A stretch of DNA of 35,663 nucleotides from contig CASGAD010000026.1 in assembly GCA_949299335.1 (NCBI GenBank), positions 1 through 35,663 of the forward strand, given 5' to 3'. The stretch's first letter is position 1; every line of letters begins with the position of its first letter. Origin of the DNA: an uncultured bacterium (GTDB taxonomy: Bacteria; Bacillota_I; Bacilli_A; RFN20; CAG-826). Under the pieces are notes generated by a model. It ran no database searches, was not told the DNA's origin, and was given only the letters and a program-made list of their open reading frames with translations. Made by a program: the position numbers and the translations under genes. Below are positions 13,648 through 16,494 of this stretch, one piece after another.

Positions 13648-14208
13648 ATGATTTATTTAGCTTCTACTTCTCCTCGTAGAATAGAGTTAATTCATAAAAT
13701 CACCAATGATTTTAAAATTATTTCTCCTTCTTTTGATGAGAGCAAATTAGACAAAAATATCGAACATTTATCTCTCTTAGAGAGCTTAAATAAAGCAAAA
13801 TCTGTGCAAAACCTCGTTAATTTTGAGGATTGTATAATTGGCTGCGACACGATTGTGACATATGAGGATCGTATCTTTTTAAAACCAAAAGATTTAGTTG
13901 ACGCATTTAATACTTTAAAGTTTTTATCTAATAAAACACATAAAGTTATTTCAGGCTATACAATCATTTATAAGGGACAAACTATTTCAAAAGAAGTAAC
14001 AACAGAAGTTACTTTTAACAAATTGACTGATGAACAAATTAATCGTTACATCAAAGAAAATAATGTTTTAGATAAAGCCGGGAGTTACGCTATTCAGTTT
14101 GATGAAAACTATCATTTAATTAATAAAATAAAAGGAAGCCTCGATAATGTAATCGGCTTCCCTACTGAACAAATTAAAGAAACATTATTAGAGCTTAAGG
14201 TTATCTAA
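13648..14208 (+). CDS. maf: Maf-like nucleoside triphosphate pyrophosphatase
   Basis: Maf proteins hydrolyse non-canonical or pyrimidine nucleoside triphosphates (dTTP/UTP type) and are linked to septum inhibition in B. subtilis. The N-terminal STSPRR (6-11) and the catalytic aspartate in GCDTIV (D67) are present, and the 186-aa length is typical. It is coupled to rnjA (one-base gap). The 3' end overlaps the convergent EIIB-like gene by 21 bp, and its coding sequence contains a minus-strand terminator at 14122-14161. Confidence 0.92.
   Translation: MIYLASTSPRRIELIHKITNDFKIISPSFDESKLDKNIEHLSLLESLNKAKSVQNLVNFEDCIIGCDTIVTYEDRIFLKPKDLVDAFNTLKFLSNKTHKVISGYTIIYKGQTISKEVTTEVTFNKLTDEQINRYIKENNVLDKAGSYAIQFDENYHLINKIKGSLDNVIGFPTEQIKETLLELKVI
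14122..14161 (-). terminator. Intrinsic terminator of the nadK transcript, inside maf
   Basis: GGAAGCC (14134-14140) pairs with GGCTTCC (14155-14161). Read on the minus strand the stem is followed by TTTTATTTTATT (complement of 14122-14133). No T run follows on the plus strand, so it acts for the minus-strand nadK/EIIB-like operon even though it lies in maf codons. Confidence 0.6.
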
Positions 14209-14577
14209 AGCCTTAAGTTCTTCACTTAAATCTTCTTTAACAAGAATTAACTTATTCTTCATTTCGATGATTCCATCGAAATTTTCTTTTTTTAATGATT
14301 CTTTATCGACTAATGAATAATCTTTTAATTCAAGAGTTAATCTTGAACCTACAAGTTTATAGTTAATAATATTCTCTTTCCCACCAAGGTATTTAAAAAA
14401 ATCATCATCAGATATAGTCAAAGCTTTTTTAGGTTCTTCAACTACTTCATGCTTTCCTTTATTTTTCCTAGTAAAGAAAATAATTAAAAAGACAATAAGT
14501 AAAATTGCTAGAATCGAAATAATTAATATCCATGTAATTTGAACTGGATTTAAATCTAAAGTTATTAAATTAGTCAT
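14188..14577 (-). CDS. Membrane-tethered PTS-EIIB-like protein lacking the phospho-cysteine
   Basis: This 129-residue protein has one N-terminal TM segment (about 14-35), a charged linker and a C-terminal domain resembling glucose-family PTS EIIB. LGGKENI (64-70) is followed by xGSRLTLELKD, which corresponds to the CxTRLRxxxKD of EIIB, and then by a second half ending in a hydrophobic strand. The phosphorylated cysteine is replaced by V76 while R79-L80 is kept, so phosphotransfer is unlikely and a binding or regulatory role is more plausible. It overlaps the nadK stop by a few bases and is co-transcribed with nadK. Function unknown. Confidence 0.65.
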   Translation of the reverse strand: MTNLITLDLNPVQITWILIISILAILLIVFLIIFFTRKNKGKHEVVEEPKKALTISDDDFFKYLGGKENIINYKLVGSRLTLELKDYSLVDKESLKKENFDGIIEMKNKLILVKEDLSEELKALDNLKL

Positions 14578-15346
14578 TTAAAAATGCCTCCCTAGTTTTT
14601 TTAATGTAATTATTACGCTTATTCTTTAAAAATCTAATCTTTTTATTGCTAATTTTAAAAGAAATAGTTCCATCAAAATCTTCTAAATACCAAGACTTAC
14701 AATCATAATATATCCATACATTTGAAGGCTTAATATTGCTAATCGTAATTATTTTATCTTTATTTAATACATATGGAGAATGAATAGATGAATAGAATTT
14801 ATTATTAATTGGGGCTTTTTCAACAAATTGAATCATTTCAATTTCATTATCAACTAAAGCTCCCCCAATAGACCTAGACATTCCGCTTGAGCCTATCGAA
14901 GAAGAAACTAAACAGCCATCACCTTTAATTCTTTCTAAAAAAGTATTATTAATTGAAACATCAAAAGTTAAAGTACTACCTTGAGGGGCTTCTACTCTAA
15001 ATTCATTAATTGCATACGCTTTTATGCCATTTATTTCTGCTTCTAATAAACTAACTTTCTTTTCGAGATGTTTTTCATCAAGTAAATCGTTTAGTAATTC
15101 ATCAACTTCTTTAGTACTATATTCACATAAATAACCTAAATTACCAAAATTGATGTTAGCAAATAATGGGTTAACATCGTAATATTTCTGAATTGACCTT
15201 AAAAATGTTCCATCTCCACCAACACTAATAACTATATCTGGGGATGTTTCTTCATAAGTATATCCATATGAAATTAATTTATTTTTGATTATATTTGCCT
15301 CTTGTTTTGCGTCTTGTTCATCAATTGTTGAAATAAAAAACTTCAT
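14570..15346 (-). CDS. nadK: NAD kinase
   Basis: NAD kinase phosphorylates NAD to NADP. The nucleotide-binding GGDGT (43-47) with the following FLRS, and the glycine/serine-rich DGCLVSSSIGSSGMSRSIGG segment typical of the family, are clear. I use the ATG at 15346 (258 aa), which has AAAGGA 7 nt upstream, not the TTG at 15373. It is transcribed divergently from the CYTH gene and leads a two-gene operon with the EIIB-like protein. Confidence 0.94.
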   Translation of the reverse strand: MKFFISTIDEQDAKQEANIIKNKLISYGYTYEETSPDIVISVGGDGTFLRSIQKYYDVNPLFANINFGNLGYLCEYSTKEVDELLNDLLDEKHLEKKVSLLEAEINGIKAYAINEFRVEAPQGSTLTFDVSINNTFLERIKGDGCLVSSSIGSSGMSRSIGGALVDNEIEMIQFVEKAPINNKFYSSIHSPYVLNKDKIITISNIKPSNVWIYYDCKSWYLEDFDGTISFKISNKKIRFLKNKRNNYIKKTREAFLND

Positions 15347-15408
15347 ACTATAATCCTTTAAAAATGTACTCAATTATTGTATCATATTTTAAAAGGAAGT
15401 TATCAAAT

Positions 15409-15987
15409 ATGGCAACAAATATTGAAATTGAAGCTAAAGTTTTAATCACAAAAGAAGACTACGATAAATTAATGAAAGTTTACGGTAGTCAAAAAGTAGA
15501 TGAATTCGATCAAACAAATTACTACATTGAGAGTAAAAACTTGGATTTGAAAAGATTAGGTGTAGGTTTAAGAATTAGAAAGAAGAATAATTCTTATGTT
15601 ATGACCTTAAAAGCACCTATGAGTGAAGGTTTACTTGAGAAAAATGCTTCTCTCACTGCTGATCAATATAATGCTTTTAAAGAAAAAGGAATTTTCCCAG
15701 ATTGTTCAATCAAAGAATTTGTTAAAATGCTCGGATTTGACCCAGATATGTTAAAAATTAGAGCTCAATTAAAAACTCATAGAATTGAAATACCATTAGA
15801 CGAAGGAAAGCATGTCTTCTCAATTGATAAGAATGAATATAATAAGATTACTGACTATGAGTTAGAAATGAATTCCAATTCATTAATGAGAGCAAAAAAT
15901 AAACTCCAAGAAATTTGTGGAACAAATGGGGTTGCTTACAAAGACAATTTAAGATCAAAGCAAACTAGATGCTTAGAGTCCTTATAA
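15409..15987 (+). CDS. CYTH domain (YjbK-like) protein
   Basis: This 192-residue protein belongs to the CYTH superfamily of triphosphate-binding beta-tunnel enzymes. The hallmark E6-x-E8-x-K10 is at the N-terminus, and further basic and acidic strand motifs (LRIRKK, LKAP, ELE) follow. Gram-positive members resemble YjbK and may hydrolyse or bind triphosphorylated compounds; the substrate cannot be read from the sequence. The ATG at 15409 follows AAGGAAG (15393-15399) and starts exactly at the conserved domain. TATCAT (15380-15385) is a likely -10 box. Confidence 0.85.
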   Translation: MATNIEIEAKVLITKEDYDKLMKVYGSQKVDEFDQTNYYIESKNLDLKRLGVGLRIRKKNNSYVMTLKAPMSEGLLEKNASLTADQYNAFKEKGIFPDCSIKEFVKMLGFDPDMLKIRAQLKTHRIEIPLDEGKHVFSIDKNEYNKITDYELEMNSNSLMRAKNKLQEICGTNGVAYKDNLRSKQTRCLESL

Positions 15988-16023: not shown

Positions 16024-16494
16024 TTATTCATTTGAATTATTCTTTTTAGCTTCCATTTCCTTGATGTATTCAGCAAATCCATCATTACATGCATCGGAAC
16101 AAGATTCTAAATGGTTAGGACATGATGATTTGGCAATTCGTCTAGCTGCTGGAATAAACGAACGAATTTCTTCTTCATTATAGCCAACTTGAATACGTCT
16201 ATCATCAACTACGATAGGACGCTTTAATACACTAGGATTTTTTCTAATAAAATCTATAAGTTCATTAATAGACATATCTTCAATATGAACATTGCCTTCT
16301 TTCATAATGTTACTTCTAGTAGATATAATATCATCGGTTCCATTTTCTGATTTAGCTAAAATCTCTTTTAGCTCTGTTGGATTAAGAACACTAGAAAAAA
16401 TATTCTTTTCTTTGAAAGGAATATTTTGGTCGTTAAACCACTTTTTTACTTTCTTGCAACTAGAGCAACTTGGAGATGTATAAATAACAATCAT
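16024..16494 (-). CDS. spx: Spx-family RNA polymerase-binding redox regulator
   Basis: Spx binds the alpha-subunit C-terminal domain of RNA polymerase and controls thiol-stress genes through a CxxC redox switch. The thioredoxin/ArsC-like fold is clear: YTSPSC10-SS-C13, then GTDDIISTRS, RRPI-like KRPIVVDDRR (R92) and QVGYNEEEIR. At 156 aa it is longer than the usual 130 or so. An added tail carries C125, H128, C132 and C136 (SSCPNHLESCSDAC), which could form a metal site or second redox switch. TATAAT (16501-16506) ends 6 nt before the ATG without a Shine-Dalgarno, implying a leaderless message. Confidence 0.93.
   Translation of the reverse strand: MIVIYTSPSCSSCKKVKKWFNDQNIPFKEKNIFSSVLNPTELKEILAKSENGTDDIISTRSNIMKEGNVHIEDMSINELIDFIRKNPSVLKRPIVVDDRRIQVGYNEEEIRSFIPAARRIAKSSCPNHLESCSDACNDGFAEYIKEMEAKKNNSNE

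Follow-up and report, generated by a model that had tools for sequence, protein, structure and literature searches.

The analysed window, a stretch of 35,663 nt from the genome of an uncultured bacterium, contains a gene for a small membrane protein with an EIIB-like domain. From the left to the right, we delineated the following features at this locus:

13648..14208, (+) strand: gene for a Maf protein (PF02545), convergent neighbour of the EIIB-like gene.
14188..14577, (-) strand: TM and Cys-less EIIB-like protein of 129 aa (ORF with ATG start, PF00367, homologues, dN/dS).
14203..14409, (-) strand: EIIB-like cytosolic domain, residues 57-125 (PF00367, profile, AF2 model, structure match).
14350..14352, (-) strand: codon of Val76, which aligns with the phospho-cysteine of E. 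coli EIIB.
14476..14538, (-) strand: transmembrane helix, residues about 14-34, predicted N-out/C-in (hydropathy, AF2 helix, charge bias).
14570..15346, (-) strand: nadK, encoding NAD kinase, upstream of the EIIB-like gene (NF003424, E = 7.5e-49).
15364..15987, (+) strand: divergent gene for a CYTH-domain protein, between spx and nadK (PF01928).
16024..16494, (-) strand: spx with a Cys-rich C-terminal extension, part of a conserved spx-nadK-EIIB neighbourhood (NF002459, E = 5.6e-50).

The first 8 nt of the EIIB-like ORF are also the last 8 nt of nadK, and at its far end the ORF shares 21 nt with the convergent maf gene. Compared with its closest relative, the gene shows a dN/dS of 0.149, indicating purifying selection and hence a real, constrained gene. 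The Cys-rich extension of the Spx-like protein reads CPNHLESCSDAC, and varied versions of it are found in the congeners at L080, L083, L087 and L088. Ubiquitin matches from one search were discarded as repeat artefacts.

As a single sequence, the protein matches PF00367 in residues 61-91 with an E-value of 2.3e-5 and 24.1 bits, below the curated Pfam cut-off of 27 bits, with NCBIfam PTS IIBC models matching there as well. When 28 family members were combined into a profile, it hit the solved E. coli EIIB-Glc structures with an E-value of 4.6e-11. The AlphaFold2 (AF2) model (pLDDT 82) has an N-terminal helix at residues 11-40, and its first structure matches are EIIB (3bp8 chain C, E = 3e-5, rmsd 1.8 Å over 72 columns, target-normalised TM 0.83). 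By profile and structure, the EIIB alpha/beta fold is present. All 28 family members carry a higher net charge on the C-side of the TM segment than on the N-side, which according to the positive-inside rule places the EIIB domain in the cytosol. Together with hydropathy, these results bear out the sequence-only reading of a membrane-tethered EIIB-like domain in which a single TM segment stands in place of EIIC.

That reading had also recognised the LGGKENI and SRL motifs and a valine, Val76, in place of the phospho-acceptor cysteine, which the alignment to E. coli EIIB confirmed. We extended this alignment to 100 family members and true PTS EIIBs. The cysteine is missing in 98 of the 100, a descriptive figure as the set contains a few near-duplicates, and its column is unconserved, filled mostly by K, T, N, E, V, S, R, Q or D. 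Two glycines (100% and 93%), an Asn (100%) and, in most sequences, the first Arg (79%) are conserved; most have lost the second Arg of the EIIB "RLR" motif. The only two sequences with the cysteine, from L123 (family f24) and L124 (f25), are distant members from other families, whose genomes also have YajC and HPr. True PTS EIIBs recovered by the same search in a Mycoplasma-like family retain it. The window protein resembles the EIIB domain of PtsG/EIICB-Glc in its fold and its GG-x-x-N-I and TRL/SRL motifs but differs in lacking the phospho-cysteine, the second Arg and any EIIC part, in having a single TM segment, and in a genome without HPr.

This genome, of 1.42 Mb and 98.3% complete, yielded one EIIB-like match, the window protein itself. 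Searches covering HPr and EIIB found neither HPr nor another EIIB, and HPr was likewise not found in 24 of the 25 congeners searched. The phosphate donor chain, HPr at least, is thus missing from the protein's own genome, and ordinary PTS phosphotransfer is very unlikely for a protein in a 98%-complete genome of this content. The retained fold and first Arg could still suit a working stand-alone EIIB phosphocarrier using another acceptor residue. We regard this as extremely improbable, since in the 100-sequence alignment neither the Cys column nor its surroundings contain a conserved nucleophile and the organism has no detected HPr or other EIIB. That the domain is a non-catalytic adaptor, as first proposed from the sequence, is well supported by the cysteine loss and the absence of HPr, and is probably correct. 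Of the two outcomes named beforehand as refuting the sequence-only reading, a lack of profile similarity to EIIB did not occur, and homologues with the cysteine hardly did.

To place the protein, we searched the class and found a profile match in 334 of 395 genomes, some of these matches being real PTS proteins. Among 40 loci from 12 other families, most proteins have the same short architecture of a TM segment and a Cys-less domain; those of f24 and f25 have the cysteine, and those of f14 (L095-L097) are 219-242 aa long, with several predicted TM segments before the Cys-less domain and HPr as the next gene. The window protein is therefore part of a wide Bacilli family of TM and EIIB proteins and not a one-off, with relatives in many Bacilli of reduced genome. 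Across Bacilli and mycoplasma-like genomes, this delimits a broad family of EIIB proteins that are anchored in the membrane and phosphorylation-dead. An annotation based on PF00367 would call its members PTS components, and many of their genomes are without detectable HPr.

The spx-nadK-EIIB order recurs in the Mycoplasma-like family f29 (L186, L190-L192, L195, L197). The L195 locus, at 156 kb, presumably corresponds to MG_127-MG_129 of Mycoplasma genitalium. M. genitalium MG_129, in the same gene order, is thus a probable family member. Compared through L195, whose match to M. genitalium is an assumed one, the window protein and MG_129/MPN268 (M. genitalium/M. pneumoniae) are both small Cys-less proteins with one N-terminal TM segment and an EIIB-like domain, encoded downstream of spx and nadK. 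MG_129 has already been described as an orphan EIIB (PMC13047044), so that the non-catalytic membrane form, initially taken as uncharacterised, is not quite new. M. genitalium has no single EIIA or EIIC but, unlike the window organism, in which none was detected, has HPr (PtsH, MG_041; PMC13047044).

The proximity to nadK had suggested a sensor or adaptor functionally coupled to NAD kinase. The 8-nt overlap speaks for such a coupling, as does the spx-nadK-EIIB arrangement, shared between the order of the window organism and the Mycoplasma-like family, and the nadK neighbourhood is conserved within the window's own family and order. The survey of nadK neighbourhoods confirmed this recurrent synteny but also showed that either gene can occur without the other. 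In nine genomes from four genera (L015, L064, L065, L066, L070, L074, L076, L077, L078), the EIIB-like and CYTH genes lie side by side, leaving no space for a nadK, and NadK was not detected elsewhere in these genomes with NF003424, a model that can miss divergent NadKs. L063 and L071 (f3 g40) were left out of this count, as their EIIB-CYTH gap of more than 800 bp could hold a divergent nadK. Conversely, nine congeners, each at least 90% complete (G002, G003, G006, G009, G013, G017, G021, G022, G023), have nadK, and the EIIB-like gene was not found in them; nadK adjoins maf with nothing between in the five loci read of these nine. All nine fall in two clades of the FtsY and Ffh trees. The missing match in G024 (74% complete) is probably due to incompleteness, because G024 lies within the gene-bearing clade of these trees. 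The EIIB-like gene has been lost more than once and hence is not essential everywhere. Furthermore, no nadK lies within about 4 kb of the EIIB-like gene in f14, f16, f17, f23, f27 and f28, and in four other families HPr adjoins the gene. We therefore rejected functional coupling, which is quite improbable and not supported by these data, and consider NAD kinase a neighbour by conserved synteny. At L064, L065, L066, L070, L074 and L076-L078, NAD kinase is undetected (NF003424) and nadK is cleanly absent from the locus. Among these genomes, G076 and G105 are about 100% complete.

Other families place the gene differently. It follows ruvA-ruvB-queA in f16 and ruvB-queA-tgt in f27, the neighbours being named by eye and length, and the slot after ruvAB-queA(-tgt) is occupied by the EIIB-like gene in L100-L103 and L125-L127. 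In Bacillus, yajC sits in this slot. The protein could accordingly have taken over the slot and role of YajC as an accessory of the Sec translocon, and YajC exceeded the cut-off in just 25 of the 395 class genomes, few of which have the single-TM Cys-less form. On the other hand, congeners without the EIIB-like gene are also without YajC. Because the distribution tracks phylogeny, the complementarity is weak evidence. PF02699 (YajC) is not among the Pfam matches of the window protein, and its own genome gave no YajC match. We consider a YajC replacement unlikely and set it aside as suggested by position but phylogenetically confounded.

A second recurrent neighbour is HPr. In 12 genomes of four families, f14 (L095-L097), f16 (L100-L102), f27 (L125-L127) and f28 (L128, L129, L227), HPr is the next gene downstream on the same strand, overlapping or within 51 nt. 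The flanking genes differ between these families, indicating that the EIIB-HPr pair is kept as a unit. The genomes of f14, L128 and L129 have no HPr besides the paired one, and those of f16 and f27 have one more; the genome of L227 is not part of this count. His15 is intact in 10 of the 12 and replaced by Gln in 2, while Ser46 is intact in all 12. Crh is an HPr-like regulator with Gln15. In L128 and L227 (f28), a Crh-like Gln15 HPr is encoded directly downstream of a Cys-less EIIB-like gene, so that neither partner can carry PTS phosphate. The window protein resembles Crh, which works in regulation, in being a PTS domain without its phospho-acceptor; Crh differs in being soluble and a different PTS domain.

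From these pairs, the protein could be read as a receptor at the membrane that binds HPr or P-Ser-HPr and that persists in the HPr-less window lineage as a relic or in a new use. Adjoining HPr genes in differing gene contexts, the invariant Ser46 and the Gln15 variants favour this possibility. It is, however, doubtful, as the protein is kept without a detected HPr gene in the window genus, in f17 (6 of 6) and in f12 (2 of 2), and the gene is under purifying selection in the HPr-less window genus. HPr therefore cannot be the general partner.

We infer instead that the window protein is probably a non-catalytic membrane docking module. A single N-terminal helix would keep the dead EIIB domain at the cytosolic side of the membrane, where the domain would serve for protein docking rather than as a phosphocarrier. 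That an EIIB can offer a docking site at the membrane has a precedent in dephosphorylated EIICB-Glc, which sequesters Mlc (PMC3901232). The protein could likewise sequester a transcription factor or small regulator at the membrane, as EIICB-Glc does in recruiting Mlc and SgrT (PMC3901232), and among solved structures the EIIB of the Mlc/EIIB complex is its nearest match. Phosphorylation could not act as a switch on a domain that stays dephosphorylated, though, and no regulator gene is a conserved neighbour in the loci examined, which leaves sequestration with a low probability.

For the docking module, the leading candidate client is FtsY, the SRP receptor, a tentative assignment that we hold somewhat less likely than its alternatives combined. 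MG_129 was predicted to bind FtsY with a size-corrected ipTM of 0.496 in a pooled AlphaFold3 study from 2026, in which MG_129 and PtsH would bind FtsY at separate sites (PMC13047044). The same work cites one FtsY-MPN268 crosslink, spanning 33.4 Å in the model (PMC13047044). Experimentally, this published crosslink alone points to a partner, and its span is long; with the prediction, it makes FtsY a candidate contact of MG_129-type proteins. FtsY is present in 59 of 59 relatives searched and can therefore serve lineages without HPr or nadK. The HPr gene beside the EIIB-like gene in 12 genomes agrees with HPr in the predicted MG_129-FtsY complex.

The raw FtsY/Ffh divergence ratio is higher in species without the gene. 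With outgroups as a control, Ffh proved accelerated too and FtsY not specifically so in the gene-losing species, and we dropped this rate test as support. No compensation was seen at the FtsY N-terminus, which stays amphipathic whether or not a species has the gene. In the loci examined, the EIIB-like gene does not adjoin ftsY, and none of the 16 loci scanned has an SRP RNA beside it.

The window protein may help to hold or position FtsY at the membrane, as SR-beta does in eukaryotes. Where HPr persists, the same complex may also bind HPr, or HPr phosphorylated at Ser, and so be tied to carbon status. Eukaryotic SR-beta is a GTPase. The analogy is functional only: both are small membrane-anchored proteins, the one proposed here to hold the SRP receptor, but the folds are unrelated and the FtsY contact of the window protein is putative. 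The prokaryotic SRP receptor has been described as lacking an SR-beta subunit (PMC2780400). For the combined reading of a phosphorylation-dead EIIB as a membrane docking module, with FtsY as leading candidate client and HPr as a possible ligand in some lineages, we see about even chances. That reduced-genome Bacilli possess a dead-EIIB subunit of the SRP receptor, which would anchor or position FtsY in the manner of SR-beta with HPr as metabolic input in some of them, is conceivable though unlikely. Taken with the published FtsY prediction, the EIIB-HPr gene pairs suggest that PTS-derived domains are connected with protein targeting.

The distant members at L123 (f24) and L124 (f25) are membrane-anchored stand-alone EIIB proteins that retain the catalytic cysteine. 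By eye, the gene preceding that of L123 is DAK2-domain-like, and an NYN-like gene lies two genes past that of L124.
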